NCBI GenBank assembly: GCA_903824045.1
Contig: CAIJVD010000006.1
Span: forward strand, 1 to 64,000
Direction: 5' to 3'
Source of the DNA: an uncultured Chlorobiaceae bacterium
Lineage (GTDB): Bacteria > Bacteroidota > Chlorobiia > Chlorobiales > Chlorobiaceae
Length of the DNA stretch: 64,000 bases
Shown here: in pieces, positions 33,339-51,633 of the stretch
Numbering within the stretch: the stretch's first letter is position 1
Layout of the letters: every line of letters begins with the position of its first letter
Position numbers and translations under genes: made by a program
Notes under the pieces: model-generated
The model's input: only the letters and a program-made list of their open reading frames with translations
Told to the model about the DNA's origin: nothing
Databases searched by the model: none

Positions 33339-33561
33339 CCATCTCAGCGCGCTTCACTCACCCCTTCGTTCAATAATTCCATCCATCCAATAGTGCGCAC
33401 CAGGCCGCACACCCGTGCGGTATCGCGCGCCCTAACGGCAGCGTTTGCAAGGTCCCCTCCGATAGTAAGCGGATAAGCGCTACGCGTAATTATTTCTAAC
33501 TGGCTCTACAATTGGCAGTTCAGGGTTCTTCTGAAAATTCACCACCAGCTTGGGGATGAGT
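33339..33561 (+). promoter_or_regulatory. Upstream region of gvpA with candidate activator palindromes
   Basis: No gene is seen here. It holds a perfect 8-bp palindrome gtgcgcac (33393-33400) and a 6-bp-arm dyad ccgcac-accc-gtgcgg (33405-33420). Both lie about 145-170 bp upstream of the sigma-54 -24 element and share GTGC/GCAC halves. Two more dyads (aactg...cagtt 33498-33520; ttcag...ctgaa 33519-33535) lie closer. The distance suits binding sites of an NtrC-type activator. Confidence 0.4.
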
Positions 33562-33578
33562 TGGCACATTATGTGCAT
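33562..33578 (+). promoter_or_regulatory. Sigma-54 (RpoN) -24/-12 promoter of gvpA
   Basis: TTGGCACATTATGTGCA matches the consensus TTGGCACr-N4-TTGCW except for one base. GG (33564-33565) and GC (33576-33577) have exactly 10 bp between them, as required. Transcription would start near 33589, about 60 bp before gvpA. The core is also a 13-bp near-palindrome (GCACATTATGTGC). A gene for a sigma-54 activator closes the same cluster. Confidence 0.75.
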
Positions 33579-33650
33579 TTACATGTGGCGAGGTAAACCG
33601 TCCCTCCTTCCAAAGCACGGCACTTAATGACTTAAAAACTGGAGACCATC

Positions 33651-33857
33651 ATGGCAGTTGAAAAAACAATCGGCTCATCAAGCCTCGTAGAGGTTATTGA
33701 CCGTATCCTTGACAAGGGTGTTGTTGTTGATGCATGGGTAAGGGTATCGCTGGTAGGTATCGAGCTTCTTGCTATCGAAGCAAGGGTAGTCGTTGCCTCT
33801 GTCGAGACATACCTCAAGTATGCAGAAGCAATCGGCCTGACTGCTAAAGCTGCATAA
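33651..33857 (+). CDS. gvpA: Gas vesicle major structural protein GvpA
   Basis: The 68-residue shell protein self-assembles into the ribs of the gas vesicle wall. It has the highly conserved core [20 protein letters not shown], then [20 protein letters not shown] and [14 protein letters not shown] (helix-strand-strand-helix). Codon use is GC-richer than in most later gvp genes, as expected for very high expression. The start has ggag 9 bp upstream. A small hairpin with a bulge (33897-33916, no T run) follows and may reduce read-through into the next genes. Confidence 0.98.
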
Positions 33858-34016
33858 ACAGCGCAGGCAGTTTATTGATTGTTCTTGCTAAAACATCCTC
33901 CTGGCAGATGCCGAGGTAGCATGATTTACCAAGAACTCAATATATGCATGTAACAGAGTCTGGAGCAGAAGAAAAAAAAAGAAGGTGTTGCGGGAAATAA
34001 ATAACATTCACTTGAT

Positions 34017-34631
34017 ATGAGTGCGGAAGAAATAAGAGAGACATCAACTGATAACTATGCAGTTGATGCAAGCCGAATAGCAAAAGTACAAAAGGCATTT
34101 GAGAGTTCAGAAAATATACATGAGTCGTGTTATTGTTTGATAAAAAATGTTGAAGAATCCCTTGAATCACTGAAAGGGTGTCGTAACGAGATAAGTTCAA
34201 GGCTTTGCGAGACACTTGCAAAGAATGAATCCATGCGAAAAAAAGATTTCAATATAATCATGGATGATATATATGGAATTCTTGCTGAAAAAGAGAAAAA
34301 TGCATGGAGTGATTTTATAGAATATGTAGAAGATCAAAAAGAGTTTACAGGATCAATGAAGAATATTATTCTGAATATTCAGGATTATATGCAAAAGGAA
34401 GATTCGGGGAAAAGTGATCTCTTGAAAAGGGAGTTGATGCAAGTTGCTGCACTTCAGGAAGAACGGAAAAATAGTGTCACAAAAAAACTGACTGATTTCC
34501 AAAATATGCATAGAAGAGTAATGAAGTATCTGGAGTCACTGCTTACTCTGGGGCACGACATTAAAATCAAAGATATACGGTTTGCAAAAACAATGATAGA
34601 TTTCAGAAGCACAGTAAACGTTACAATCTAA
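34017..34631 (+). CDS. Helical/coiled-coil protein of the gas-vesicle cluster, function unknown
   Basis: 204 residues, highly charged and almost all helical, with long heptad-like stretches (about 30-150) and no membrane segment or signal. I do not recognise a family. It lies 159 bp after gvpA and 17 bp before the large repeat coiled-coil protein, so the two are probably one transcript. Its AT-rich codon use matches the gvp genes, not the flanks. It might be a minor shell-associated or assembly protein (inference from position only). Confidence 0.75.
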   Translation: MSAEEIRETSTDNYAVDASRIAKVQKAFESSENIHESCYCLIKNVEESLESLKGCRNEISSRLCETLAKNESMRKKDFNIIMDDIYGILAEKEKNAWSDFIEYVEDQKEFTGSMKNIILNIQDYMQKEDSGKSDLLKRELMQVAALQEERKNSVTKKLTDFQNMHRRVMKYLESLLTLGHDIKIKDIRFAKTMIDFRSTVNVTI

Positions 34632-34648
34632 CAATAACGGAGAAGAAA

Positions 34649-35818: not shown

Positions 35819-35830
35819 CAGCTAAGGTTC

Positions 35831-35881
35831 AAGCCAGACAGGATCATTAACAACAATGATGATCCTGTCTGGCTTTATTTC
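35831..35881 (+). terminator. Strong rho-independent terminator inside the gvp cluster
   Basis: A 17-bp perfect stem (aagccagacaggatcat with its complement at 35859-35875) and an 11-nt loop, then tatttcttttt. It ends the gvpA-to-GvpC-like unit and means gvpN onward needs its own promoter or read-through. Confidence 0.85.
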
Positions 35882-35960
35882 TTTTTCTACCGTCAAGAAC
35901 GATGCAATTGCAACAATTAATTTTTCGCCACCTATGCGAAGTCAAGGTTATCAGAAAGAG

Positions 35961-36860: not shown

Positions 36861-36884
36861 AACAAATATCTAATTTTAAATCCT

Positions 36885-37199
36885 ATGCATCTTTATAAGG
36901 ATAAAAAAGGGCTCAACTGCATCAAGACAATTCAGACCGTCTCAAAGTCTTCTGCGAGGGAGAGTGATGGTTCAGGATTTGTCAAGCTCTATATGCTTGA
37001 AAAGGAAAAGAACAGGCTAATGGCTGAAGAGACAAAAATCCTCAACAGAATGGAAGTGATCAAGGACAGACTGAGAGTAATAAGCGATATTTATGCGAAC
37101 AGTAGAGGGCTCCTTGAGAGTAACGAAAGTAGTGGTGATAAATTCAGGAGTTTCAATGATAAAAGCAATGGATTTTCAACCATTCAAATAGAGTATTAA
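36885..37199 (+). CDS. Small coiled-coil protein, GvpV-like
   Basis: 104 residues. The centre GFVKLYMLEKEKNRLMAEET followed by IKDRLRVI is a charged helix resembling the core of cyanobacterial GvpV (a Y-x-x-L/M-x-x-x-E/K-K-x-R-L pattern). The N-terminus is basic and the C-terminus polar and disordered-looking. GvpV is a small accessory protein of unknown action. It sits between gvpN and gvpJ with 24- and 10-bp gaps. The match is from pattern memory and needs a profile search. Confidence 0.55.
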   Translation: MHLYKDKKGLNCIKTIQTVSKSSARESDGSGFVKLYMLEKEKNRLMAEETKILNRMEVIKDRLRVISDIYANSRGLLESNESSGDKFRSFNDKSNGFSTIQIEY

Positions 37200-37209
37200 T
37201 AATAATACC

Positions 37210-37512
37210 ATGCCTGATTTAAAACATGCGGTGAACGCTACGGGTCTCGCTGATATTCTTGAGCGAGTTCTTGATAAAGGAATTGTTATTGCCGGGGATA
37301 TTAAAATTCAGATTGCTGATATTGACTTATTGACAATTAAAATCAGGCTGCTTGTGGCTTCTGTAGATAAAGCGATGGAAATGGGTATCAACTGGTGGCA
37401 GGAGGATCCGTATTTATCGATTAAAGCAAAGGAGAGTGAGCAACAAATCATCCATGAGGATTTGCAGGGCAGGATTGAAAGGCTTGAGGCGATGAACCAG
37501 TTGTCAAAATGA
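37210..37512 (+). CDS. gvpJ: Gas vesicle protein GvpJ (GvpA paralogue)
   Basis: The 100-residue minor structural protein is related to GvpA. The core LADILERVLDKGIVIAGDIK, then IQIADIDLLTIKIRLLVASV matches the GvpA fold. A C-terminal extension of about 40 residues (helical, EDLQGRIERLEAMNQL) is the feature of GvpJ/GvpM members. These paralogues are thought to start or cap the vesicle cone. It is followed 6 bp later by the Hsp20-like gene. Confidence 0.92.
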   Translation: MPDLKHAVNATGLADILERVLDKGIVIAGDIKIQIADIDLLTIKIRLLVASVDKAMEMGINWWQEDPYLSIKAKESEQQIIHEDLQGRIERLEAMNQLSK

Positions 37513-37518
37513 TACAGC

Positions 37519-38025
37519 ATGAAAGAAGATACTCACAATGAATTGGGATCGGATCTTTTCGGTTTGGGAGGCCTGTTTAAAGGGATTGAAAAAATCGTCG
37601 ATCTTGCAAAACAGTTGGAGGAGAAGGGTGGGCTGAATTCTGAAGCAGAGCTGAATTTGGATCACATAAGAAAAGGAATGAAAGGGGTTTATGGTTTTAC
37701 CGTCAAGTCAGCTATCGGCGGGACCCCAAAGGTCGAGACCTTTGGAAATATCACTAAAACCCCGAGTGGTCCAAAGGTTAATGACGAACGTGAACCCATT
37801 ACAGACCTTTTCGATGAAGATGATGCGGTAATCATTATAGCCGAAATGCCGGGTGTAGAGGAGGGTGATGTGACGGTGGAGATATGCCACGACATTCTTG
37901 ATATATCCGCCCGAAGTTCGAACAAGTATTATCACAAAGAGATATTGCTTCCGATTCCGTCAGATTCAGGGCATATGCAGAAGAAATATATTAATGGAAT
38001 CCTTGAAATACGAATAAGTAAATAA
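37519..38025 (+). CDS. Hsp20/alpha-crystallin protein (GvpH-like)
   Basis: 168 residues. The C-terminal half (about 93-168) is an alpha-crystallin domain: DLFDEDDAVIIIAEMPGVEE, DVTVEICHDILDIS, and a C-terminal YINGILEIRISK with the A/N-G-x-L motif. The N-terminal half has a Gly-rich FGLGGLFKGIEKIVDLAKQL segment shared with GvpH of haloarchaea. GvpH binds GvpA and prevents aggregation, so a holdase role in vesicle assembly is the likely function. It lies directly upstream of an ArsA/Get3-like ATPase. Confidence 0.85.
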   Translation: MKEDTHNELGSDLFGLGGLFKGIEKIVDLAKQLEEKGGLNSEAELNLDHIRKGMKGVYGFTVKSAIGGTPKVETFGNITKTPSGPKVNDEREPITDLFDEDDAVIIIAEMPGVEEGDVTVEICHDILDISARSSNKYYHKEILLPIPSDSGHMQKKYINGILEIRISK

Positions 38026-38033
38026 TTATTCAA

Positions 38034-38990
38034 ATGCCGCTTACTGGTTTGGAAAACAGTGAACTGAAGATGATTATTTTCGGCGGAAAAGGCGGTGTTG
38101 GGAAAACGAGTTGTGCAATTGCCAGTGCCATCGGTCTTGCAGAGAGGTACAAAACACTGGTGATTTCGACTGATCCAGCCCACTCAATATCTGACAGTCT
38201 GGATCAGCATATTGGTTTCAAAGTTCATCAGGTTGATACTGTTCCGAACTTGTTTGCTCTTGAAATATCTGCAGACAAAGCCTTTCAGGAGTTCAAAAAA
38301 GAGCATGAACGCGAGCTTATAAAACTGTTTGATACTTCAACAACTCTTGATGATGATGATATCCAGGAGATGATGAATCTTTCAATTCCCGGAATTGATG
38401 AAGTGATGAGTTTCAAGACAATAATTGATCTCATTGAGAAGAATGAATATGAGAAATATGTTGTAGATACCGCCCCAACAGGTCATGCGTTGAGACTCCT
38501 TTCATCTCCCGGTCTGCTTGATGGCTGGATAAAAATGGCAGCAAAGATGCGGTGGAAGTATCGCTACATGATAGAGTCATTTTCCGGTAATTACAATGAG
38601 GATGAGGCCGATGTGATGCTGCTTAATCTGAAAAAAACAGTCACAAGAATCTCCTCATTGCTCAGCAACGGTACAAAATGTGAATTTATCCCGGTCTGTA
38701 TTCCAGAAGATATGGCAATACAGGAGACTGCGAGACTTCTGAAGGAGTTGGGCAAGTACAGGATAGCCTCCCGACAGCTCATTCTCAACAATGTCATGGA
38801 GTCGGATGAGGCGGGATTCTGCCATCAGAGAAGAGTTGCCCAAATGAAGTATATCGCCCAGGCCGGGCAGTTGTTCAAGGGTATGCAGATTGTCACCGTT
38901 CCGGTTTTCCCCGAAGAGATTAAAGGGTTGGAGGCGTTGAAAAAATTGCGAGATGTATTATTTGGAGATAGAACCACTGCTCCTGTATAA
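38034..38990 (+). CDS. ArsA/Get3-like ATPase in the gvp cluster
   Basis: A 318-residue single-domain member of the deviant Walker A (SIMIBI) family. The P-loop is GKGGVGKT at 18-25, with STDPAHS (switch I) and VVDTAPTGHALRLL (switch II), then a helical region and VCIPEDMAIQETARL. No adjacent arsenic gene exists. The Get3 CxxC zinc pair is not seen. Get3/ArsA homologues chaperone hydrophobic membrane proteins; in this setting it might handle the very hydrophobic GvpA (inference). Its gene is packed 8 bp after Hsp20 and 2 bp before the CDC48-like gene. Confidence 0.85.
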   Translation: MPLTGLENSELKMIIFGGKGGVGKTSCAIASAIGLAERYKTLVISTDPAHSISDSLDQHIGFKVHQVDTVPNLFALEISADKAFQEFKKEHERELIKLFDTSTTLDDDDIQEMMNLSIPGIDEVMSFKTIIDLIEKNEYEKYVVDTAPTGHALRLLSSPGLLDGWIKMAAKMRWKYRYMIESFSGNYNEDEADVMLLNLKKTVTRISSLLSNGTKCEFIPVCIPEDMAIQETARLLKELGKYRIASRQLILNNVMESDEAGFCHQRRVAQMKYIAQAGQLFKGMQIVTVPVFPEEIKGLEALKKLRDVLFGDRTTAPV

Positions 38991-38992
38991 CG

Positions 38993-41134
38993 ATGAATAG
39001 CGATGAGCTGATACTGAAAGTCAAGGAAGCACTTGTAAAGGATGCAGGGCGTGCCATAGCCAGGGTTGATCCTCAGGACATGATACGTTGCGGCTTGGAG
39101 TCCGGCGATATAGTCCTGATTGATGCAAAGCGCTCCACACCAGTCAAAATCCTGCCCTCCTATCCTGATGACAGAAACAAGGGGATCATACAGGTTGATG
39201 GGATCATCAGGGAAAATGCCGGCGTGAGTATTGACGAAAAAGTTTCAGTCAAAAAAACCAGCTTCAGGATTGCGTCGAGGATCAGGCTCAAGGCCCTGAG
39301 CAAAACAAGTGCGCTTTCAAAAGCCGATAATGCCAAATACATCGGTTCCCTGATAAACGGACTGCCCGCTTCAAAGGGCGATAAAATCAAGGCGACCCTT
39401 TTCGGTTCAGGCTCCATATACTATACGATCACCTCCACTGCCCCTGATGGAGTCGTCCTCATTACGCCCGATACTCTTGTGCAGCTTGAACAAGCCGGAA
39501 AGACGGACGCCGCAGCCGAGAAGGTCAGTTATGAGGATATTGGAGGGCTTGTCAATCAGCTCCAGCGCATACGTGAAATGATCGAGCTTCCGCTCCGCTA
39601 TCCTGAAATATTTGAGCGTCTTGGTGTTGAGCCTCCCAAAGGGGTGTTTCTTTACGGCCCCCCCGGTACAGGCAAAACACTCATCGTCAGAGCAGTTGCG
39701 CAAGAGACCGATGCCTATTTCATCAATATTTCCGGCCCGGAAATTATGGGCAAGTATTATGGTGAAAGTGAAGCACGACTCCGCAATATCTTCGCTGAAG
39801 CTCAGGCCCATGCCCCATCGATCATCTTTATCGATGAAATTGACTCCATTGCACCAAAAAGGGAGGATATGGGTGGTGAAAAGCAGGTCGAAAAAAGGGT
39901 CGTCGCACAGCTTCTCTCATTGATGGATGGTCTGGAGTCACGAGGCAAAGTCATTGTCATTGGCGCCACCAATATTCCTAATTCAATAGATCCTGCACTG
40001 CGCCGGCCGGGCAGGTTCGATCGCGAAATAGCGATCTCTATACCCGATAAACACGGGCGTCTCGAAATCCTTCATATCCATACCAGGGGCATCCCGCTCT
40101 CTGAGGATGTGAACCTGCAGAGAATTTCCGAAATAACGCATGGCTTTGTGGGCGCGGATCTGGAAGCGCTGGCACGTGAAGCGGCGATGACGGCCTTGAG
40201 GAAAATACTTCCGGTCATCAACTATGAATTAGCCGAAATACCCTATGACCTTTTGATGCAGCTGGAAGTGACAATGGACAATTTCCTCGATGCAATGAAA
40301 GAGGTTGAGCCGTCAGCCATCCGGGAGGTATTTGTTGAGGTTCCCGATGTCAAATGGGAGGATGTCGGCGGGCTTGATGAAATAAAGAGTGCGCTGAAGG
40401 AGAGTGTTGAGTGGCCGGTCAAGTACTCCGAACTTTTTAAAACTACCAATACAAAGCCGCCAAAGGGAATCATTCTTCATGGCAGGCCGGGAACGGGCAA
40501 GACATATCTGGCAAAAGCGCTGGCGAGTGAAAGCGGATTGAACTTTATATCGGTCAAGGGCCCGCAACTGCTAAGCCGGTTTATCGGCGAATCGGAAAAA
40601 AGCGTCAGGGAGCTGTTCAGAATGGCGAAGCAGGCTGCGCCATCAATATTGTTTCTTGACGAAATCGACAGTCTTGCACCTGCAAGAAACAGCGGGAGCT
40701 CTGATTTAGGGGTTATTGAAAGAGTCATAAGCCAGTTTTTGACAGAGATGGATGGCATCGAGGAGTTAAAAGGCGTGACTGTTCTTGCTGCAACGAACAG
40801 AATTGACATGATAGACCAGGCATTGCTACGCTCAGGGAGATTTGACTTGATGTTTGAAGTGCCACTGCCTGACAGAGCGACTCGGGAGAGAATATTTGAA
40901 ATTCATACAAAACAGATGACACTCGGTAAGAGTGTTAATCTCATAAGCTTGTCAGAGAAGAGCGATCATATGACAGGAGCAGACATTGGGTTTATATGTC
41001 AACAAGCAAAGATGTGTGCACTTAGAGAAATTATTGGAAAGAGTGAGGCTGATAATAGAGATAAGGTGATCATTGATGAGGAACATTTTGATCGCGCAAT
41101 ACAAGTGCTCACAGCACAAAATAAAATACATTGA
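38993..41134 (+). CDS. CDC48/VAT-type double AAA+ ATPase in the gvp cluster
   Basis: 713 residues. An N-terminal double-psi-barrel-like domain (1-170) precedes two AAA modules. D1 Walker A is GPPGTGKT (222-229) and Walker [10 protein letters not shown]2 Walker A is GRPGTGKT (497-504), with R replacing the usual second P, and Walker B ILFLDEID. Arginine-finger segments ([16 protein letters not shown]) are present. It ends NKIH, so the HbYX proteasome-docking motif is missing. The family unfolds proteins or extracts them from complexes. Inside a gvp operon it may remodel vesicle or chaperone complexes (inference). GvpF/L follows 4 bp later. Confidence 0.9.
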
Positions 41135-41138
41135 GATA

Positions 41139-42167
41139 ATGAGTGCACTGGGAATTTATATATATGGGTTTGTATCTAATGCCAGAATTGATGCGTTAAA
41201 AGATATATTAATGCAGTCCGGGGTATATGCAATAGAGTACAAGAAAATATCAGCACTTGTGTCAGATACAAGAGAGAGTGGTATTGAGGGTTTGGAGAAA
41301 GAGTCTCTTGGAAAACTCCTGATAGATCATCAGCTCAAAATTGAAAAGATTAATGCGGCAGGGTGTGACAAAATTGTGCCAATGAAGTTTGGTACAATTG
41401 TCAGTTCAGGAAATGACATATACAGGATTTTGGAAGGGGGGTATGATGTAATTAGTAGTACCATCGATGCAATAAAGGCACTGCATGAAATGGATGTTGT
41501 TGCAAGGTGGAGTGATTTCGGAAATTTTATCAATAAAATTGCCAGCAATGCAGAAATTGTATCACTAAAAAATGTGATGGCACATCAAGACGCGTGTGAA
41601 GAAGTTGACATGGTAAGTATAGGGAGAGCAATAAAAAAGAAAGTTGATGAGAAGAACAGCAAAGCCAGAAAGGATATCCTGAAAGCTCTCATTCCAATTT
41701 GTAAAGACTATAAAAAGCAAGAAACGTTAAATGACGAAATGGTTATTAATGCGGCTTTTCTTATAGAGAGTAGTGAGAAAGAACGATTTATAGATGCAGT
41801 TGAGCAAACAGATTTAAAATATGCAGATGAGCTTGGATTCAAAATTGTTGGCCCATTGCCATGCTACAGCTTTTACACAATAGAGTGCAAGGCGATAGAA
41901 AAATCTGATGTAGAGAGTGCAATGCGGTGTCTGGAAATCGAGGTATTAAAAAGCGAGTCGGATATCAAAAAAGCCTATAGGGCAATGGCTTCAGTATCAC
42001 ATCCAGACAGCAGCCCAGAAAAAGCTAATGCTGATTCATCAAGATTTATTGAAATTCATAATTCGTACAAGCTATTAATGGATTACAGCAGTGCAACTAA
42101 AAAGTATGGATTGGAAATGAATGCTCTTGGTGCCGATCCGGTGTATGTGATTAAAATAAAGGAGTAA
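41139..42167 (+). CDS. gvpF/L: GvpF/L-family protein fused to a C-terminal J-domain
   Basis: 342 residues. Residues 1-265 are a GvpF/GvpL protein (MSALGIYIYGFVSN, KIVPMKFGTIVS, MVINAAFLIE, FKIVGPLPCYSFYTIE). Residues about 268-320 form a J-domain: ESDIKKAYRAMASVSHPDSS, with HPD at 288-290, then FIEIHNSYKLLMDY. HPD is the motif that stimulates Hsp70 ATPase. GvpF/L proteins bind GvpA and accessory proteins in a pre-assembly complex, so the fusion may deliver DnaK to that complex (inference). ATG 41139 is chosen from homology; the open frame to 41073 overlaps the CDC48-like gene. Confidence 0.88.
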   Translation: MSALGIYIYGFVSNARIDALKDILMQSGVYAIEYKKISALVSDTRESGIEGLEKESLGKLLIDHQLKIEKINAAGCDKIVPMKFGTIVSSGNDIYRILEGGYDVISSTIDAIKALHEMDVVARWSDFGNFINKIASNAEIVSLKNVMAHQDACEEVDMVSIGRAIKKKVDEKNSKARKDILKALIPICKDYKKQETLNDEMVINAAFLIESSEKERFIDAVEQTDLKYADELGFKIVGPLPCYSFYTIECKAIEKSDVESAMRCLEIEVLKSESDIKKAYRAMASVSHPDSSPEKANADSSRFIEIHNSYKLLMDYSSATKKYGLEMNALGADPVYVIKIKE

Positions 42168-42168
42168 C

Positions 42169-42948
42169 ATGTCAAGAGATGGTAAATATATATATTGTAT
42201 AATAGCAACAAGAAACGAATGCAACTTTGGAGAGATAGGGGTAGGAGGAAAAGGAAATATCGTCAACTCAATTGGATTTGAAGGACTCAGTATGGTGGTT
42301 AGCGATCACCGCTTGAATAGTATTGAAGTTAATTCAGAAAATATTCTTGCTCATCAAAAAGTAATTGAAGTGGTGATGAGCGAGTATAACAGTGTGATTC
42401 CCGTTCGATTTGGAACTGTTGCGGCCACTCCAGATGAAATAAGAAATCTTCTTGACAGACGGTATGCTGAGTTATCAGAGCTGATTCTCAGGTTCGAAAA
42501 TAAAGTTGAATATAATGTCAAAGGGATATGGAAAGATATGAACTTTATTTATAAGGAGATAGACGATAAGAATCTATTATTGCATCAATTAAGGGAAGAT
42601 ATTGAACGAAGTACAGATACAACTATACGAGAGAGTAAAATTTTGGATGCCTCCGGCTTAATCGATGAAAACCTCAAGGCTATGCGAGTTAGTGCGCAAG
42701 AAGAGCTTGAGAGTTTATTGCGAAAAACAACAGTAGGATGTAAATCAAACGCAATCTCTGCTGACGCAATGTTTATGAATACAGCTTTTTTATTAAATCA
42801 AGGTCGAGAAAAAGAGTTTGAAAATATACTGACATCATATGCTGAATTATATCCGGAAAAATTTGACTTTATTATTGCGGGACCTTTGCCGACGTTTAGT
42901 TTTATAGATTTGCACATTCTGCCTGAAAAATGGGAACGCAATGACTGA
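42169..42948 (+). CDS. gvpF/L: GvpF/L-family protein (second copy)
   Basis: 259 residues of the two-domain GvpF/L type: N-terminal KYIYCIIATRNECNFGEIGV, central VIPVRFGTVAATPDEIRNLL, and a C-terminal FMNTAFLLNQGREKEF followed by FDFIIAGPLPTFSFIDL. It begins 1 bp after the preceding gene's stop. Very AT-rich. Whether it is GvpF or GvpL in the haloarchaeal sense cannot be told. Confidence 0.92.
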   Translation: MSRDGKYIYCIIATRNECNFGEIGVGGKGNIVNSIGFEGLSMVVSDHRLNSIEVNSENILAHQKVIEVVMSEYNSVIPVRFGTVAATPDEIRNLLDRRYAELSELILRFENKVEYNVKGIWKDMNFIYKEIDDKNLLLHQLREDIERSTDTTIRESKILDASGLIDENLKAMRVSAQEELESLLRKTTVGCKSNAISADAMFMNTAFLLNQGREKEFENILTSYAELYPEKFDFIIAGPLPTFSFIDLHILPEKWERND

Positions 42949-42966
42949 AAAAATAGTTAATAACCT

Positions 42967-43746
42967 ATGAAGAGTGATATGGATCCAGGTTTTGGGCGAT
43001 ATATTTATGGTATTATTAGAAATTCCGAGCCCGTCAATTTTGGTCAATTCGGTATAGGTAGTAATTCTGATCATGTCTATACTGTAATCTTCAAGAATAT
43101 ATCTGCAGTTGTAAGTTCATCACCAATAGTTCGGTATGAAGCAAGAAGAGTGAATATGATTGCTCATCAAAAAGTACTGGAAGAAGTTATGAAGCAATTT
43201 AGTGTGCTTCCAGTGAGATTCTCTACAATATCTCCACATGATAATGATGAAGCAATTATAAATATTCTTAAGGATGATTATCAGCGTTTTGATAATCTTC
43301 TCATTAAAATGAATAAAAAGAAAGAGATGGGTCTTAAAGTGATGGCATCTGAACAGCCTGTATATGAAAGCATCATACAAAAGCATGATAATATTCGGAG
43401 ACTAAGAGACAAGCTTGTGGACAAACCATTTGACAAGACCCACAAGGAACGAATCAAAATTGGGGAGATGGTTTTTTCGGCACTTAAGGATGAAATTGAA
43501 ATTTACAAGGATTATATACTTGGAAAACTCAGCCCAATAGCAGAAGATGTTAAGGTGAATGACAATTACGGTAATTTCATGGTATTAAATGCTGCATTTC
43601 TTATTAATGAGGAAAAAGAACCGCTCTTTGATAATGAGGTCAATCAAATTGATCAGAAATATGAGGGGCTTATGACAATAAAGTATGTTGGAACTCTCCC
43701 GCCATATAATTTTGTCAATTTGTCAATCAAAACATTGGGAGTATAG
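42967..43746 (+). CDS. gvpF/L: GvpF/L-family protein (third copy)
   Basis: 259 residues, same layout: RYIYGIIRNSEPVNFGQFGI, SVLPVRFSTISPH, MVLNAAFLINEEKE and MTIKYVGTLPPYNFVNLSI. It resembles the second copy most closely (both open with a KYIY/RYIY and NFG pattern), suggesting a tandem duplication. The stop overlaps the region used as gvpG leader. Confidence 0.92.
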   Translation: MKSDMDPGFGRYIYGIIRNSEPVNFGQFGIGSNSDHVYTVIFKNISAVVSSSPIVRYEARRVNMIAHQKVLEEVMKQFSVLPVRFSTISPHDNDEAIINILKDDYQRFDNLLIKMNKKKEMGLKVMASEQPVYESIIQKHDNIRRLRDKLVDKPFDKTHKERIKIGEMVFSALKDEIEIYKDYILGKLSPIAEDVKVNDNYGNFMVLNAAFLINEEKEPLFDNEVNQIDQKYEGLMTIKYVGTLPPYNFVNLSIKTLGV

Positions 43747-43769
43747 CCATCTTTATTCTTGACGACATA

Positions 43770-43985
43770 TTGTTTGCTCCTGTAAACGGACTTATTTTTA
43801 TCGCTAATAAAATTAACGATGTCGTTGAAAAGGAAACATCCGATGAGGGCGCAATAAAAGAACAGTTGATGATGCTTCAGCTTCAGTTTGAAATGGACGA
43901 AATTGATGAAGATCAGTACGACAAACAAGAGGATAACTTGTTAAGGCGCTTAGAGGAAATAAGAAAGAGTAAAGCCGGAAATTAA
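43770..43985 (+). CDS. gvpG: Gas vesicle protein GvpG
   Basis: The conserved body reads LFAPVNGLIFIANKINDVVE, then DEGAIKEQLMMLQLQFEMDEIDEDQYDKQEDNLLRRL, which is standard GvpG (small, helical, accessory). Listed from TTG 43770 (71 residues). The family usually has an LDD just before LFAPV, and here ILDDI is encoded in frame at 43755-43769 with no ATG, GTG or TTG before it. The frame upstream begins ATC TTT ATT. GGGAG at 43737-43741 sits 7 bp before that ATC (43749). The true start may be this rare ATC or the ATT at 43755. Confidence 0.9.
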   Translation: MFAPVNGLIFIANKINDVVEKETSDEGAIKEQLMMLQLQFEMDEIDEDQYDKQEDNLLRRLEEIRKSKAGN

Positions 43986-44005
43986 TATTTAAATACTCGG
44001 GGGAA

Positions 44006-44278
44006 ATGATGAGCAAAATTACTGATGTTCGACATGCGGTTATCAGTTTTTTAAAAGAAAATATACATATCAATGATGTTACTGTAATTAAGATTGAAAA
44101 TGAAGGTGATAGATGGAGATCTGTAGCTGAAGTTTATGAGGATGATTCCTTTCTCAAATCAATGAACCTCCCTCCAAAAAAAACAAGACTGTTTTATACT
44201 GTAACTGTTGATTCTGAATTAGAGGTTATCTCTTTTCAAAGGACATCAAGTTATGACGATTCTGAAAATGAAGAATAA
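44006..44278 (+). CDS. gvpO: Gas vesicle protein GvpO
   Basis: 90 residues matching the GvpO family: an N-terminal helix, then VTVIKIENEGDRWRSVAEVY and KTRLFYTVTVDSELEVISFQ (an alpha+beta fold). A gggggaa ribosome site lies just before the start; ATG 44006 or 44009 could serve. GvpO is essential in haloarchaea and may act in expression or assembly. It overlaps the following GvpF/L gene by 26 bp. Confidence 0.88.
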   Translation: MMSKITDVRHAVISFLKENIHINDVTVIKIENEGDRWRSVAEVYEDDSFLKSMNLPPKKTRLFYTVTVDSELEVISFQRTSSYDDSENEE

Positions 44279-45101
44279 TAATGCGGATTCCGATTTGCCC
44301 GTACCAGCAGATAACTTGATGTACCTCTATTGCATAACTGCGGGAGCTCCTCTGCCTGAAAGTTATAAAGACGTCTATAAGATAAAAGTCATTGAGGTTA
44401 ACGGCTTATATGTTATCTATAAAGAGGTAGGGGCTGACGAATATTCCACCGATAATATCCAGCTCAAGATCAAGGATGCAGTTTGGCTTGATTTTAACGT
44501 AAGAGATCATCTATCGATCCTGACCTCACTTATGAACGTTACCACAGTCATTCCGTTCAATTTCGGTACTGTCTATCGAACCAAGGAACGGATGCTTCAG
44601 TTTATTGCTGATCATGAAGGTGATATCAGACATAATCTCTTATTTTTTGAAGGCAAAGAAGAGTGGAGCGTTAAGCTCTATTTTGAAAGGAAGACAATAG
44701 TAGATAATATCAACGATATCAGTGATGCTATTCGTAAGCTTGATGATCAGATCAAAATCAGTTTTCCTGGAAAAGCTTATATGCTTAAAAAGAAAAAAGA
44801 GGAGATTATTCAGAATGAGATTTATGATTTCTATATAAAGTGTTCCGCAAGAATATCCGATATTCTATGTTTCTCTTGTATTGATACCAAATTGCTGACT
44901 ATTCAACAAGATGAACGTGCTGACAACACAGAAGACATGATTCTAAACGGTTCATATCTCCTGTTGAAGGAAAATATTGCTGAATTCCATGCTTCTGTTG
45001 ACAAAATTCTTGATGACTACCAGTCAACAGGAGTAACTGTTGCAGTTACTGGTCCCTGGCCGCCATATTCCTTTATTAAAATGCGCTCTACGAATGAATG
45101 A
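44253..45101 (+). CDS. gvpF/L: GvpF/L-family protein (fourth copy)
   Basis: 282 residues: MYLYCITAGAPLPESYKDVY, TVIPFNFGTVYRTKERMLQF, ILNGSYLLLKENIAEF and VTGPWPPYSFIKM. The GPWPPYSF ending marks the GvpL-type branch (shared with the fifth copy), unlike the GPLP-type copies. A charged helix (about 155-185) fills the middle. Its stop overlaps the small GvpA-family gene by 8 bp. Confidence 0.92.
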   Translation: MTILKMKNNNADSDLPVPADNLMYLYCITAGAPLPESYKDVYKIKVIEVNGLYVIYKEVGADEYSTDNIQLKIKDAVWLDFNVRDHLSILTSLMNVTTVIPFNFGTVYRTKERMLQFIADHEGDIRHNLLFFEGKEEWSVKLYFERKTIVDNINDISDAIRKLDDQIKISFPGKAYMLKKKKEEIIQNEIYDFYIKCSARISDILCFSCIDTKLLTIQQDERADNTEDMILNGSYLLLKENIAEFHASVDKILDDYQSTGVTVAVTGPWPPYSFIKMRSTNE

Positions 45102-45285
45102 CGATGTATATGGACTAAGCAAAGAGGTTACAGTTCTCGATATTCTTGATCGGGTATTGACGAAAGGTGTTGTCATTACCGGCGATATAGTTATTTCGGT
45201 GGCCGATATAGATCTTATTTATGTTGGGTTAAGAGTACTCTTGAGTTCTGTAGAGACTATGAATAAAATTAAGACTCAAATCTGA
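45094..45285 (+). CDS. Small GvpA-family protein (GvpM/GvpS type)
   Basis: 63 residues with the GvpA core: EVTVLDILDRVLTKGVVITG, then VADIDLIYVGLRVLLSSVET. It is shorter than GvpJ and lacks its C-terminal tail. The start ATG 45094 overlaps the preceding stop; the extra upstream open frame lies inside the GvpF/L gene. Such paralogues are minor wall or nucleation components. Confidence 0.9.
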   Translation: MNDDVYGLSKEVTVLDILDRVLTKGVVITGDIVISVADIDLIYVGLRVLLSSVETMNKIKTQI

Positions 45286-45301
45286 TTTTTAGAACATATT
45301 G

Positions 45302-46060
45302 ATGAATATGTCACTAATAATATTTGGAATAGCAAAAAACTCCTTATCTCACGCTCAATCATCTCTGTTGATTGAGACTCTCTATAAAGAATCCGGCATC
45401 TCTCTTGACCTCTTCAGGTATAAAGAGATCGTATTTATCTTTGCTGACTATCATGAAGCCAATTACTCGATGTCAAGAGATGATCTCTTGAGATATGCGC
45501 ACGTTATTGAACATCTGGCGAAATCTATATCGCTTCTGCCGATGCGTTATAAATCGCTTGCTAATTCTACCGACCAGTTATCTGAACATGCAGAAAAAGG
45601 CTATCACCAAATTTTGACTAATCTGGAATTGATAGATCATAAAGAGGAGTTTGCTGTCAGGGTGCTAAGGTCCCCAAGTGCAGCAGATAACGAGGACGGA
45701 ACGCATATCGGTACGGACGAGCATCAACTCCAGGATGCGCTTTCTGGTGACAGCCCGAGCAGGATCTATCTCAGAACGAAGTATGCTGCCTTTAAGGCTG
45801 AAGAGCTGCGGGCGGTATATAGTGAAAATGTCAAAAGAAAATTTATAGAAGATCTCGCTCCGATATCGCTTTTCTATGAGTTTAAGAAGAGGTTATCCCC
45901 ATCAACGGTTATGGACGCAGTCGTTCTGGTCGACAAAGATAAGCGGAAGGCCTTGAGTGACTTGATTGCCGGAATGCAGAAGTTTTATCCCCAGCATAAT
46001 ATACTGATGACGGGCCCGTGGCCTCCCTACAGTTTCGCCAATATTGATATACAGTTATAA
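45302..46060 (+). CDS. gvpF/L: GvpF/L-family protein (fifth copy)
   Basis: About 252 residues: SLIIFGIAKNSLSHAQSSLL, ISLLPMRYKSLANSTDQLSE, VMDAVVLVDKDKRKAL and MTGPWPPYSFANIDI. It is the most divergent of the five but shares the GPWPPYSF end with the fourth. ATG 45302 or 45308 could be the start. The stop and gvpK start overlap (TAATG). Confidence 0.88.
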   Translation: MNMSLIIFGIAKNSLSHAQSSLLIETLYKESGISLDLFRYKEIVFIFADYHEANYSMSRDDLLRYAHVIEHLAKSISLLPMRYKSLANSTDQLSEHAEKGYHQILTNLELIDHKEEFAVRVLRSPSAADNEDGTHIGTDEHQLQDALSGDSPSRIYLRTKYAAFKAEELRAVYSENVKRKFIEDLAPISLFYEFKKRLSPSTVMDAVVLVDKDKRKALSDLIAGMQKFYPQHNILMTGPWPPYSFANIDIQL

Positions 46061-46404
46061 TGATCGAAGATAAACTGATTTTCTGTTCAGGTTCAGAGGC
46101 TGAAATGCTGGATGAACTAAGCAAATTCTCTTCGCAACCTTCGTCACATATTAACGCCACCCCGGGAAATACTGATTCCGGAATTGCACGCCTCGTCCTG
46201 ACACTTATAGAGTTAATCAGAAAGCTTGTTGAAAAGCAAGCAATGCACAGAATTGATGGCAACTCATTGACAGAAGAGCAGATAGAAAACCTTGGGGAGA
46301 CACTTATGAAGCTTGAAATGAAGATGGATGAACTGAAAAAACACTTCAATCTCACCGACAAGGATCTGAATCTTAATCTTGGTATTCTGGGTGACTTGCT
46401 ATAA
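46060..46404 (+). CDS. gvpK: Gas vesicle protein GvpK
   Basis: 114 residues. The GvpK core GIARLVLTLIELIRKLVEKQ, AMHRIDGNSLTEEQIENLGE, TLMKLEMKMDELKKHF and LNLNLGILGDLL is complete. GvpK is required for vesicle formation, with an unknown molecular role. Last gene of the forward gvp unit; only 10 bp separate it from the convergent regulator gene, with no terminator between. Confidence 0.93.
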   Translation: MIEDKLIFCSGSEAEMLDELSKFSSQPSSHINATPGNTDSGIARLVLTLIELIRKLVEKQAMHRIDGNSLTEEQIENLGETLMKLEMKMDELKKHFNLTDKDLNLNLGILGDLL

Positions 46405-46414
46405 GGGGTTGAGA

Positions 46415-47812
46415 TTATAACGTGTCGGCATCTGTCTTTCTGATCTCGATGTTGTACTTTTTCATTTTTCTGATCAACGCATGGCGACTTATTCCTAACT
46501 GCACTGCAGTTTTTGCTTGACAGTAGTCATTCTCATCCAGTGCTTTTCTTATAATATCCGCTACCGATGAATTGAGTTGATCATGATGCTGGCTCGTCAA
46601 TTCCTTTTGCTTATGGGTTGGCAAAGGAAAATCACACAGTTCCAGAGAGTCCCCACTTGATAATATTATTGCCCGTTCGGCCAGGTTCCGCAACTCCCGG
46701 ATGTTCCCCGGGAAACTGTAGTTCTCAAGCTCCTCAAAAACCTCTTTAGCAATGATTTTTATAGGCTTGTTGATTCTTGTTGAAAATTCATCAACAAAGT
46801 CAAGCAGCAGTGGCCCGATATCCTCTTTACGCTCTCTTAGGGGAGGAATGTTAATATGAAGCGTATTAAGCCTGTGCAGAAGGTCAAGCCTGAATCGCTT
46901 CTCATCAACCATCTTCTGTAAATCATAGTTAGTTGCCGCTATAAGTCTGAAGTTTGTTTTGATTGTTTTGGTGTCACCAACCCTTAAGATGACCCGTTCT
47001 TCTATTGCCCGCAGAAGCTTTGACTGCAGAGTTAACGGCATGTCTGCTATTTCATCCAGGAAGAGTGTCCCTTCATTACAAGTCTCAAATAAACCCTTTT
47101 TATCAGATATTGCACCTGTGAATGCTCCTTTCTTATGCCCGAAAAATTCACTCTCTATTAACGATTCCGTAAAGGCACTGCAATTTATTGCTCCAAAGTA
47201 ATTTTCTTTGTTTTTGCTCATGTGATGAATCAGTCGAGCAAAAACCTCTTTTCCTGTTCCGCTTTCTCCTGTTATCAGGACATTAATATCAGGATACTCT
47301 GAAGCTTTTTTTGCGAGCTCATATATTTCTATGATTTTCTTGCTTTTGCCAATGCAGTGCCGGCCCATCCTCGACTCTATATCTACAGAAATCAGCGAAA
47401 ACTTTTCTTCAGCAGCAGCAACTCTTCGCTGCATATCAAGATGTTTCTGAGTGCGCTCAATAGCAATCTTGATATCTATATACCGCATCGGTTTTCTTAA
47501 GTAATCAAATGCGCCCAGTCTTATCGATTCAATAACCGTATCCATGTCTCCATGTGCTGAAACCATTATTACTTCAATATTCTGATATTTTGATTTAATA
47601 TATTTTAACACATCAAGACCATTTGCGCCTACCAGTCGCACATCAAGAATGACGAGATCAATCTCGTGTTTCTTGAGTATCTCATATCCTGAGGCAACAC
47701 TATTCGCACAGTGCGAAATGAATCCGGCATTTTGCAGATAGTCTCCGATTTCGTTTGTAAAATCTAATTCGTCATCAAGGACAAGGATATTTATCAATTT
47801 ACTGTTATTCAT
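46415..47812 (-). CDS. Sigma-54-dependent response regulator (NtrC family)
   Basis: 465 residues. A receiver domain (phosphoacceptor D57 in LVILDVRL, with acidic LDDE near 13 and Lys near 108) is followed by a central AAA+ domain with Walker A GESGTGKE (182-189), GAFTGA loop (229-234, the sigma-54 contact) and LDEIADMP. A Fis-type HTH ends it (AKTAVQLGISRHALIRKMKK). It therefore should activate RpoN promoters such as that of gvpA. Start MNNSKLIN overlaps the kinase stop by 4 bp (ATGA), giving a kinase-regulator operon. Its target at gvpA is inferred. Confidence 0.93.
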   Translation of the reverse strand: MNNSKLINILVLDDELDFTNEIGDYLQNAGFISHCANSVASGYEILKKHEIDLVILDVRLVGANGLDVLKYIKSKYQNIEVIMVSAHGDMDTVIESIRLGAFDYLRKPMRYIDIKIAIERTQKHLDMQRRVAAAEEKFSLISVDIESRMGRHCIGKSKKIIEIYELAKKASEYPDINVLITGESGTGKEVFARLIHHMSKNKENYFGAINCSAFTESLIESEFFGHKKGAFTGAISDKKGLFETCNEGTLFLDEIADMPLTLQSKLLRAIEERVILRVGDTKTIKTNFRLIAATNYDLQKMVDEKRFRLDLLHRLNTLHINIPPLRERKEDIGPLLLDFVDEFSTRINKPIKIIAKEVFEELENYSFPGNIRELRNLAERAIILSSGDSLELCDFPLPTHKQKELTSQHHDQLNSSVADIIRKALDENDYCQAKTAVQLGISRHALIRKMKKYNIEIRKTDADTL

Positions 47813-50800
47813 CGTATGGATTTGCTCGGATTTGGAAAGGAGATTGTTGCACATGTGCCAGTCATAAGAGAGCTCTTGAACTTTATATCTCCCTGCATTT
47901 CTTTTATTATTCCGTAACTGATTGAAAGACCAAGCCCGCTTCCTTTGCCAGACTCTTTCGTAGTGAAAAATGGATGCATGATATACTCAATATTCTCATT
48001 ACTGATGCCTATTCCATTGTCTTCAATAGTGATTGTAACTGTATCGTTTTCATGAAACGACCTGATTTTAATTGTCATAGTAAAATCACTGTTTGTTTTT
48101 AGTTTCTTTTCTTCAAGCGCATCAATTGAATTATTAATCAAATTAAGAATGACCTGTTCAAACTTATAGGTGTTCCCAATAACTGATATTCTGTCTTGTT
48201 CAGGCTTGAAGTCTATAGTTATTAATCGTTTCTTGCATTGGGCGGTTATCATTAGGAAAGCATTTCTTATGCTTTTATTAATGTTGATAACAGAGGAGAT
48301 GTAGTTGTTGTCTTTGCTTGAAAATGAGCGGATATTATCTATTATTGTTTGAACTCTCAAGATATTTTCAAATATCTTTTCGGATTTAATCTTGATATTA
48401 TCCCTATCAATCTTGTTTTCGGAATCAATAAGTAGTTTTTCAACAATTAGTCCGATATTATTTATTGGCTGAAATATTTCATGGGCTATACCGGAAGCCA
48501 TTTCACCAAGACTGATGAGCCTTTTTGCATGGAACAGTTCGCTTTCAATAATCTTCCGCTCTGAAATATCTCGAATGATCATCATATAGGAAGAGGGCGC
48601 CCCGTTATGATCTTGAATAAGTGCAACACTTATTTCTGCTGAGAATATTGAATTATTGTTTCTCTTTATTAGCAGGATCTCTCTGTTTTGAGTCAGCCCT
48701 TCTCTCAGAGCTACTTCGTAAATATCATTCAGAATTTTAATATTATCCTGATATACAATGGTTGAGAATGATGTTCCGATTACATCACTTTCGCATTTAG
48801 CTCCGAATAGTTCAAGCCCTATATCTGAAACATTGCTGATAATTCCGTCAAGACTGGTTGTTATTATGCTGTCTGGTGATGCTGATATCAGTGTTTGATA
48901 TTGTTTGTACAGCCTTATTCTTGCCTCTTCAGATTCACTGTATTCCAAGGAATCTGTTATTAGAACGGCAATGGATTCAATTATTTCCGATTCACCAAAT
49001 ACAGGATATACTGATAGTTCATACACATTATTGGTGTAATGATTTTTGTTTTCTGCTATATCCTGTGTTCTGTCTCCAAAATGGCACGGCTCCCCTGTAT
49101 AGAAGACCAATTCAAAGTTTGTTTTTCGGTTGAGTTTCAGGTCTTTATTAAATAAATCATGAAAATCGTGCCCCTTCAGATTCCTTGCATCATCCCCGTA
49201 CTTCTCTGTAAAAAACTTGTTCGCTTCAATAATTGTTCCGTCTATCCCGATAGCGCACAGTGGTTCCCGGGAAGAATTCAAGAGTAGTCCAAGGTTTCTT
49301 GTATTGAACTGATGGGTAATATTCTCCTTTTTATACCCGGAAATGTCTATACAGAAACCTGCATACCGGTTGTCATTACGGTCATGTATATTAACCGGGA
49401 AACCACTATTCATGATTTGCCTTTTTGTTCCATATGAGTCACAGGCATTACACTCTATACTAAATGCCACGTTATTGCTCATTGCATTGCGCATGACCTC
49501 TTCCGTCCGCTTGCGATCAGAGGGTGCAACGGCCTCTATCCATTGTTTAAAGCCGCATTCTGACAAATTTTTATCAAGCCCGTAGAGCATCTTCATCTCT
49601 TCGCTCCACTTCATCGTTCCATTTCGAGTGTTCCACTCCCAGCGTCCGGTTACAGCGGTATGTATTGGTGAAAGCACTGCCACAAAGTGTCCCTTTTGCT
49701 GGCTATAGGCTTTGATTCGGAATCTTTTTAATGGATTCAGGTATAATTCACACTGTTCTCCCTTGCCACTCATTGCAACTCTTCCCAGTGTGGTGATGAG
49801 TTCCTCATTTGTTTTTTCGATACCCGGCACAACCTCAGATATTCTCCAGCCCTCAAGATCTTCAAATCCGGTCATTATTTTGAACTGCCGATTGACCACT
49901 TCATAGACAAAGTCAACCGGGTGGCCGTTATCAAATATCATCCGGCAGTATGCAAATGCATATGAAGCATTGTAGAGCAGGTTTCTGTAACTGCTCCTGT
50001 TTTCAAGAATCTCTGTTTCAGAGGGGTTAAGTGCGGTTATGTTTACCGAGAAGATGAGCATTTGCATGACGAGCCCATCCCTGAAGGTCACCGGGTATAC
50101 CCTGTGGAGATAGAGCTGACCTTTCAGCTCCCCTTCAAAAGAGATGTGTTCTCCTGTTTGCAGAACCTGCTCTATTTTGTTTCTCGCTTTGTCGGAGATT
50201 TCGGGGGGCAGGAGGTTGTAGAGTACCGAGCCAAGCACCTCTTCCTGCTTATTGCCAAACCGGTCGATAAATGCTTCGTTAGCCGTAAGGATAATTCCCT
50301 GACGGTCAATCAAAAAGACCGGCTCCGAAAACTTGTCAAACAGAGTATGGATCGACTTGTCATATTCTGAATGCTCCTCTCCAGAGTGAAGGAGTTCAGT
50401 GCCACTGTATGCCGATGTTACCTTGAGCACGCGAAGCGGGACGGCGGAGAGAGATTCATAGCGTTTGCGATCTGTTATATCATGAATGATGCAATAGCGC
50501 AAAACTTTTGTCGAGATTCCGATATCGTTGCTGTAAATCTCAACATCGCGTACCGATCCATCGGCTCGCTTGTGGCGGACTGAAATGCGGTTTTGCGATG
50601 AGCATGACCCTCCATCCCTGTCAGGAGTTGCCTCGTCCGGACTGATCGCATTCATATCCTGAAGGCGCATTTGTCTCAGCTGATCTGACGGCCAGCCATA
50701 AAAGGCAGCAGCGGCCTCGTTTGCCTTTACAATCCGGCATGTATTGGGGTCAATAACGAGCATTGCGGCCGAATGGCGTTCAAAGAGCATCCTGAATCGA

Positions 50801-51633
50801 TCTTCGCTTTGGCGCAAAGCTTCTTCAGCCTGTATTCGGTCGGTTATGTCATGAAGCACGACATAATTCAGCAGTGTATTGGCTATCCTGAAATAGTTTG
50901 AGAATATCTCGACGTCACGAATTGAGGCGTCTGCTCTCCGGTGTCGAAAGGTAAATCGCTCTCCTCCTGACATCCGTGTTTTCTCTATCTCGTTCCTCGA
51001 GTCGCCGGGAGGGAGCGTATTGAGTTGCTGAATGCCCATCTGCTTCAGCTCTTCTGCAGACCACCCATAAAAGTCAGCAGCGGCTTTATTGGCATCGATG
51101 ATATTGCGAGTCTCAGGATCGATTATGAGCATGGCGGCAGAGTGACCCTCAAAAAACAGTCGGAACCGTTCTTCGCCTCGACGCCTCTCCTCTTCTGCCT
51201 GCCGGAGCAGCGTGACGTCATTGAAGAGTGCGATGAAGTGCTCTTTTTCAGGGCTGAACACCCAGATGTCAACGTGGCGTCGCACCCGGTCCAGCTGAAG
51301 CTTAAAGCGAGCGGAACCCCCGCTGCATGCTACGTTCCCGATTTTTTCAATCAGTTCCTGAAAAGCAGAACCCTCATCCTGAAATACCATAGAGGCAGTT
51401 GTGCCAACCAGATCTGTGAGGCCGGTCATCTTTTCATAGGCAGCATTGACCTCTATATGGGTAAAATCAACGGCGCATCCTTTTTCGAACTTCATACGCC
51501 CGTAAAGGTATGCATTGGGCATACACTCAATGAGGCGCTGGCGGCGATGCTCATCGGAACTAACCGGTACGAATGGCGTTCCGGATTTTATGTGATCAAT
51601 GTCGTTGCTGCTGCCGTACCGACTTTTTTTCAT
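47809..51633 (-). CDS. Soluble multi-PAS sensor histidine kinase
   Basis: 1274 residues with no transmembrane segment or signal peptide. About eight PAS/PAC modules can be delimited (near 29-140, 158-265, 282-385, 430-540, 552-660, 670-775, 785-905, 915-1030). Modules 1 and 5 resemble each other (Y-x-x-M-F-x-x-G-x-x-V-D-F-x), as do 2 and 3. The kinase core has H1051 (GIAHEIFQPINN), NLINNSIDAL, DNGIGI and GSGLGLSISYGII. HEIFQP replaces the more usual HEINQP. The signal is unknown; a cytosolic cue such as redox, light or oxygen is likely. It is cotranscribed with the sigma-54 activator. Confidence 0.9.
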   Translation of the reverse strand: MKKSRYGSSNDIDHIKSGTPFVPVSSDEHRRQRLIECMPNAYLYGRMKFEKGCAVDFTHIEVNAAYEKMTGLTDLVGTTASMVFQDEGSAFQELIEKIGNVACSGGSARFKLQLDRVRRHVDIWVFSPEKEHFIALFNDVTLLRQAEEERRRGEERFRLFFEGHSAAMLIIDPETRNIIDANKAAADFYGWSAEELKQMGIQQLNTLPPGDSRNEIEKTRMSGGERFTFRHRRADASIRDVEIFSNYFRIANTLLNYVVLHDITDRIQAEEALRQSEDRFRMLFERHSAAMLVIDPNTCRIVKANEAAAAFYGWPSDQLRQMRLQDMNAISPDEATPDRDGGSCSSQNRISVRHKRADGSVRDVEIYSNDIGISTKVLRYCIIHDITDRKRYESLSAVPLRVLKVTSAYSGTELLHSGEEHSEYDKSIHTLFDKFSEPVFLIDRQGIILTANEAFIDRFGNKQEEVLGSVLYNLLPPEISDKARNKIEQVLQTGEHISFEGELKGQLYLHRVYPVTFRDGLVMQMLIFSVNITALNPSETEILENRSSYRNLLYNASYAFAYCRMIFDNGHPVDFVYEVVNRQFKIMTGFEDLEGWRISEVVPGIEKTNEELITTLGRVAMSGKGEQCELYLNPLKRFRIKAYSQQKGHFVAVLSPIHTAVTGRWEWNTRNGTMKWSEEMKMLYGLDKNLSECGFKQWIEAVAPSDRKRTEEVMRNAMSNNVAFSIECNACDSYGTKRQIMNSGFPVNIHDRNDNRYAGFCIDISGYKKENITHQFNTRNLGLLLNSSREPLCAIGIDGTIIEANKFFTEKYGDDARNLKGHDFHDLFNKDLKLNRKTNFELVFYTGEPCHFGDRTQDIAENKNHYTNNVYELSVYPVFGESEIIESIAVLITDSLEYSESEEARIRLYKQYQTLISASPDSIITTSLDGIISNVSDIGLELFGAKCESDVIGTSFSTIVYQDNIKILNDIYEVALREGLTQNREILLIKRNNNSIFSAEISVALIQDHNGAPSSYMMIIRDISERKIIESELFHAKRLISLGEMASGIAHEIFQPINNIGLIVEKLLIDSENKIDRDNIKIKSEKIFENILRVQTIIDNIRSFSSKDNNYISSVININKSIRNAFLMITAQCKKRLITIDFKPEQDRISVIGNTYKFEQVILNLINNSIDALEEKKLKTNSDFTMTIKIRSFHENDTVTITIEDNGIGISNENIEYIMHPFFTTKESGKGSGLGLSISYGIIKEMQGDIKFKSSLMTGTCATISFPNPSKSIR

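Follow-up and report, generated by a model that had tools for sequence, protein, structure and literature searches.

The 64,000-nucleotide stretch of an uncultured Chlorobiaceae bacterium analysed here (contig CAIJVD010000006.1, positions 1 to 64,000; hereafter the window) carries a plus-strand gas-vesicle operon, preceded by a predicted sigma-54 promoter and a candidate enhancer palindrome and followed, on the opposite strand, by the genes of an NtrC-type response regulator and a soluble multi-PAS histidine kinase (Table 1). The operon runs from gvpA to gvpK, and its proteins match PF00741, TIGR02640, PF06386, PF05120 and PF05121 above cut-off, the last of these being the match that identifies gvpK. 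The stop codons of gvpK and of the regulator gene are 10 bases apart.

The gvpA promoter region and the convergent regulator-kinase pair

The sequence TGGCACATTATGTGCA begins 89 bases 5' of the gvpA start codon. The initial annotation, made from the letters of the window alone, had recognised here an exact GG-N10-GC site, which we confirm. Several observations point to a sigma-54 promoter: GG and GC stand at -24 and -12, the site is conserved in relatives, and a genome search returned one rpoN match. With 17 exact occurrences of TGGCACN6TGCW in a genome of 2.09 Mb, we estimate the chance of meeting such a site in the right place and on the right strand within about 300 bases at roughly 0.1%. 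The site is present in all 17 gvpA upstream regions compared (this genome, G000, among them) and at two further loci, in G065 and G034; in the latter the contig stops before gvpA, and the site follows the same ABC-F and DNA-alkylation genes.

Upstream of the promoter lies a palindrome, CCGCACACCCGTGCGG, which we regard as a candidate enhancer (upstream activating sequence) and which the initial annotation, beginning its span (33562-51633) at the promoter, left out. It contains CGCACA-N3-GTGCGG (33406-33420) and has its centre 150 bp before the -24 GG. The exact 15-mer CGCACAN3GTGCGG recurs at 18 of the 19 promoter-bearing loci, the remaining one (G033) differing by a single substitution, and the distance from its centre to -24 is 147-153 bp at 16 of 17 loci (135 bp in G057). 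The DNA separating gvpA from the next gene upstream contains three conserved islands, namely the palindrome, the -24/-12 site together with the start of the leader, and the ribosome-binding region. Conservation per 16-base window (11 of the 17 sequences) reaches 0.76-0.92 in these islands, compared with 0.30-0.64 in the remaining intergenic DNA. With at most one mismatch to CCGCACANNTGTGCGG, the genome holds two places, one before gvpA and the other before flp, and each is followed by a -24/-12 site 141-143 bp further on.

The 15-mer itself is less restricted: seven genomes that lack the gvpA site also have an exact copy, and G000, G055 and G061 have it at second places. When two mismatches were allowed, six further places (eight in total) appeared in the genome, the backward control giving four matches per strand. 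We rejected these six as additional targets for want of a convincing -24/-12 partner: for five, no partner exceeds 8 of 12 consensus bases; the sixth place (window 4169-4184) does have a partner, with 9 of 12 at 110 bp, but itself lies inside an open reading frame (ORF). A relaxed pattern applied to 37 genomes yielded four places in G034, G038 and G070 and one in G045, which has no regulator; its backward control yielded one, in G038. Two of the four, in G034 (L298:1501-2018) and G070 (L301:1057-1640), precede related 79-residue proteins (48% identical), which is suggestive of further targets, but no more than that. The neighbours in G070 are a PAS protein and the terminal part of a histidine kinase; a reading of this PAS protein as HD-GYP was dropped, as Pfam finds PAS alone in the available piece.

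Judged from the position of the -12 element, transcription of gvpA is predicted to start near 33588, at the beginning of a conserved stretch of the leader. This stretch may represent an RNA or a DNA element, and we refer to it as a conserved sequence element only. A pseudoknot (GAGG/CCTC and CCGTC/GACGG) was considered on an alignment of 15 of the 18 readable leaders plus that of locus L138 (near copies from G055, G058 and G066 excluded) and rejected, since shuffled sequences do nearly as well: the share of pairing cells is 96.5%, which falls to 41-61% once the helices are slid but averages 95.9% in shuffles. Only one pair is changed on both sides, and the covariation score was reached by 31 of 500 shuffles. 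Folding of single sequences gave no advantage over shuffles (z 1.38, -0.09, 1.07), the second helix is by eye absent from the flp leader, and an Rfam search gave one match, at chance level.

The regulator combines a receiver, a sigma-54 AAA+ domain with the GAFTGA motif and a Fis-type helix-turn-helix (HTH), as is typical of the NtrC family. The pair convergent to gvpK that had been described at first is borne out. The overlap claimed for the two genes is probably smaller: homologues align from about residue 12-21, and the regulator therefore probably starts at M15 (47812), which would reduce the overlap of its start with the kinase stop to a 4-base ATGA, instead of the 46 bases given by the longest ORF. 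The kinase contains no stretch whose hydrophobicity would suit a membrane helix (19-residue means peak at 1.2). Upstream of its gene we found no good palindrome (the best match being 9 of 14 bases), and autoregulation was discarded as a candidate.

Among the remaining genes of the operon, the second of the two ORFs that follow gvpA occupies the position where gvpC might be expected; a family search with both gave nothing above cut-off. The small ORF behind gvpN was without family in our searches, and the Hsp20-like and GvpO-like proteins match their families below cut-off. The first GvpL/GvpF protein (41142-42167) bears a C-terminal DnaJ domain. ArsA-type and CDC48-type ATPases (38034-41134) are encoded within the operon; a link of ArsA to gas-vesicle genes has been described in the available part of an earlier report (PMC2963123), and the annotation of Methylosinus places a CDC48-type protein next to its gas-vesicle cluster.

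Table 1. Features of the gas-vesicle locus, in window coordinates
Feature	Position	Strand	Remarks
Candidate enhancer palindrome CCGCACACCCGTGCGG	33405..33420	+	phylogenetic footprint
Predicted sigma-54 promoter TGGCACATTATGTGCA	33562..33577	+	-24 GG, -12 GC; exact GG-N10-GC
Conserved start of gvpA leader	33587..33620	+	related stretch in flp leader
gvpA	33651..33857	+	PF00741; NF006874 above cut-off
Two ORFs	34017-34631, 34649-35818	+	coiled-coil look (by eye)
gvpN	35856-36860	+	TIGR02640 above cut-off
Small ORF, PF00741 protein (GvpJ-like), Hsp20-like protein, ArsA-type ATPase, CDC48-type AAA+ ATPase	36885..41134	+	
Five GvpL/GvpF proteins, gvpG, GvpO-like protein, third PF00741 protein, gvpK	41142..46404	+	
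NtrC-type response regulator	46415..47812 (longest ORF start 47854)	-	receiver, sigma-54 AAA+ with GAFTGA, lid, Fis-type HTH
Soluble multi-PAS histidine kinase, 1274 residues	47809..51633	-	several PAS, HATPase; HisKA below cut-off

Co-occurrence of promoter, palindrome and regulator in the family

Our comparison comprised 86 genomes of the family, 23 of which have a PF00741 match; the region upstream of gvpA was readable in 21. Palindrome and -24/-12 site occur together in 19 of these 21. The other two, G025 and G029 (L073, L075), have neither site, nor palindrome, nor regulator, and their gas-vesicle proteins are more distant (70% identity in the CDC48-type protein, compared with about 80%); the scan of G025 left out one further PF00741-like copy, 60% identical to gvpA. 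In G009 and G039 the region was unreadable, and no match to the composite pattern exists anywhere in either genome. This composite pattern (palindrome, 122-150 bases, -24/-12 site) is found at 25 places in the 86 genomes and its reverse at none. Eighteen of the places lie before gvpA, each in a different genome, and one before flp in our own genome; the six elsewhere are in G050, G056, G070 (contig C11), G079, G082 and G084, four of them beginning with one common sequence that is probably coding. The gvpA locus of G033 escapes the pattern by one base.

Orthologues of the regulator are present in 17 of the 86 genomes at 62-74% identity, the next matches being 40% identical or less. They are found in 16 of the 19 site-bearing genomes and in one of the 67 others (Fisher p=1.6e-13, with no correction for phylogeny). 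Completeness is 80-85% in the three site-bearing genomes without it (G055, G058, G061). In a scan of genome contigs (60 loci) we recovered one close relative, at locus L138 of a lake bin, the others being 46% identical or less, and the 17 orthologues together with L138 form one clade with a support of 100/100. This tree held three of the five other activators of our own genome; the remaining two lacked a long enough match. At L138, kinase and regulator are encoded directly upstream of gvpA, which has the site TGGCACACCCTTTGCC.

The position of the regulator gene is variable. In eight genomes it converges on gvpK, and in G070 it lies beyond a kinase; in seven (G013, G034, G051, G052, G057, G065, G081) it is on a contig separate from the gas-vesicle genes, and in four of the latter (G034, G051, G065, G081) the flank of gvpK is visible and holds no regulator. 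That the regulator has been retained in genomes where it is unlinked is the strongest sign of a functional tie. The suggestion that the cluster has its own sigma-54 switch, made in the initial annotation, is well supported by comparative sequence data, because promoter, palindrome and regulator clade occur together even where the regulator lies elsewhere. The kinase shares this constancy to a lesser degree: the proposed search of relatives returned the promoter in nearly all readable gas-vesicle genomes, but a kinase immediately adjoining the regulator in no more than 8 of 17 (G000, G013, G031, G033, G051, G057, G063, G081). It is near the regulator in G070 and G065, while G066 and G074 have a related kinase past the ABC-F gene, at the opposite end of the cluster.

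The Flp/Tad pilus operon as a candidate second target

A near-copy of the gvpA promoter, likewise missed at first, stands on another contig of the same genome (G000:C17:57592-57766; L052, L228) before a Flp/Tad pilus operon. Its palindrome (C17:57751-57766) is accompanied by TGGCACAGTATATGCA at the same distance as the -24/-12 site of gvpA, and 23 of 34 positions of the leader stretch are shared between the two loci, a score that none of 20,000 shuffles equalled, while the spacers differ. The operon itself comprises, in one run on L228, matches to Flp_Fap, RcpC/CpaB, Secretin, TadE, Tad (TadG-like), AAA_31 and T2SSE; we take the AAA_31 protein to be TadZ-like and the T2SSE protein to be the TadA-type ATPase. 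Beyond the flp palindrome a CheB-CheR-PAS protein is encoded on the same strand (L228:8154-11141).

Regulator and Flp are both present in 10 other genomes. Two of these, G038 and G070, show a weaker palindrome before flp, 115 bp before a TTGA-type half site, and seven show none in up to 500 bases upstream of flp; the survey covered 182 readable bases in G053 and left out the second Flp genes of G051 and G081. Given these weak or absent palindromes, the pilus link would at best be specific to some lineages. Whether the copy in our genome functions is a matter of weighing. It could be a functionless copy, or be under another regulator or kinase, and the restriction of the full three-part arrangement to a single genome, together with its poor showing in the relatives, makes this a real, if lesser, possibility. 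On the other hand, palindrome, -24/-12 site and leader have been kept at near-identical spacing, whereas the sequences between them have diverged, and this speaks for a functional flp promoter.

Known systems, proposed mechanism and alternatives

Gas-vesicle control of this kind is not without precedent, and the initial statement that no such arrangement had been described does not hold. In Serratia sp. ATCC 39006, according to the parts of the publication available, the start of gvpA1 has been mapped by 5'-RACE behind a -24/-12 sigma-54 site, and gvpA1 depends on the NtrC-family protein GvrA, encoded in the cluster with GvrB and GvrC (PMC4982088); an rpoN mutant lost its vesicles (PMC11778176, citing Hill 2021, likewise available in part). 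The two systems agree in that the gas-vesicle genes are accompanied by the gene of a sigma-54 activator and that a -24/-12 site precedes gvpA. In Serratia, however, as far as that source goes, gvrA-C belong to a second gas-vesicle operon and quorum sensing represses gvpA1, whereas the regulator and kinase genes of the present locus stand apart as a pair convergent to the operon.

Similar again are plasmids of two methanotrophs, Methylosinus sp. C49 (NZ_AP022334) and Methylocella tundrae (NZ_LR536451), which possess a sigma-54 activator, a PAS kinase and, at gvpA, a -24/-12 site (TGGCATGACCTTTGCC at -89 and TGGCTCCGTTCTTGCA at -96, each with 10 of 12 consensus bases). Unlike the present locus, they are arranged on one strand in the order activator-gvpF-kinase-receiver-gvpA; among the ORFs of 33651-51633, of which not every small one was scanned, we found no separate single-domain receiver protein beside the kinase, the receiver being part of the activator. 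The methanotroph activators are about 32-36% identical to the regulator clade and no nearer to it than other NtrC proteins. A joint clade of these GvrA-like proteins with the regulator appeared in 0% of 200 bootstrap trees, but was not rejected (p-AU 0.351); Serratia GvrA is absent from this tree, from which own_C12, own_C17 and out_L141 were left out for their long branches. Five plasmid gas-vesicle loci were compared, with incomplete annotation: those of Octadecabacter and Spartinivicinus have neither an annotated activator nor a -24/-12 site, and gvpA of Thiodictyon has no annotated activator near it and a -24/-12-like site at -207.

Other comparisons are more remote. In Pectobacterium an adjacent two-component system activates flp/tad genes; the accessible portions of that paper give no link to gas vesicles and do not describe the response regulator as sigma-54 dependent (PMC3767616). 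In Rhodobacter and Cereibacter, CtrA/Fnr control places gas vesicles in one regulon with motility and further functions; the class of regulator is different, and no sigma-54 gvpA promoter is described in the sections available (PMC7232146, PMC11999139). A 2025 survey of sigma-54 regulons names Chlorobiia once in its accessible text, for nitrogen fixation, and there mentions no gvp, 'gas ves' or Tad (PMC12316311). Our literature search, conducted largely without subscription papers, showed, among the matches listed, no gas-vesicle regulator in green sulfur bacteria and no two-component system serving both gas vesicles and Tad pili. What is new here is the candidate enhancer palindrome, the co-occurrence of the regulator clade and the near-copy of the promoter before flp, while the kind of system was already known.

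From the anatomy of the locus and the established behaviour of the NtrC family we propose the following mechanism. The soluble PAS kinase would sense an intracellular cue, which we guess to be light or energy, and phosphorylate the regulator; this would bind CGCACA-N3-GTGCGG, some 150 bp upstream of the promoter, as an enhancer and loop to the sigma-54 RNA polymerase at 33562-33577, where the GAFTGA-bearing AAA+ domain would drive open-complex formation, with transcription starting near 33588. Through its identical three-part promoter, the Flp/Tad operon on C17 should be a further target of this regulator in the present genome. We give a probability of about 0.8 to this proposition, namely that binding of the phosphorylated regulator to the palindrome switches on sigma-54 transcription of the gas-vesicle genes and, here, also of the Tad pili.

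Several observations weigh against this proposition. The genome has six strong matches to sigma-54 activators, and four more weak ones, so that five strong candidates exist besides the regulator next to gvpK, whose clade is the only one traced over the 86 genomes. One genome, G031 (L232, G031:C189), keeps regulator and kinase without gvpA, gvpN or an exact palindrome, possibly as a remnant, through an assembly gap, or for another target. At L138 no palindrome was seen by eye between regulator and gvpA. Since the kinase directly adjoins the regulator in fewer than half of the genomes that have it, the pairing of these two is less certain than that of regulator and promoter. The same observations, L138 excepted, could be accommodated if the promoter is of the sigma-54 type but its palindrome is bound by another activator or a repressor, the neighbouring pair controlling something else. 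We consider this unlikely, given that the regulator clade follows the site so closely through the family, whereas less similar sigma-54 activators match in all 86 genomes, with or without it. Far less probable still is that the site at 33562 serves a dimeric transcription factor, with gvpA on a sigma-70-type promoter: TGGCACATTATGTGCA does contain a perfect 13-base palindrome (GCACATTATGTGC) in the window copy, but relatives do not keep it, while GG and GC are kept at exact spacing at all 19 loci with the distant palindrome, and the nearly fixed distance of the latter suits a sigma-54 activator.

Activation of gvpA by the adjacent regulator can be extended into a broader picture, to which we attach somewhat less than even odds: a single two-component sigma-54 switch, special to the gas-vacuolate members of the family and recruited independently of proteobacterial GvrA, would jointly activate gas vesicles and Flp/Tad pili, and in G034 and G070 also the 79-residue protein, so that buoyant cells turn sticky and can form floating aggregates. 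As an adhesive pilus operon elsewhere in the genome seems to respond to this same switch, floating and sticking may be under joint control.

For the use of gas vesicles as acoustic reporters, the locus offers a compact and possibly orthogonal regulator-promoter pair. The gas vesicles of Pelodictyon phaeoclathratiforme were reportedly studied by Overmann et al. in 1991; with promoter, candidate enhancer and regulator now named by coordinates and compared across the family, the depth adjustment of green sulfur bacteria becomes testable gene by gene. If the Tad link is true, one signal would tie floating to sticking or aggregating in these bacteria.

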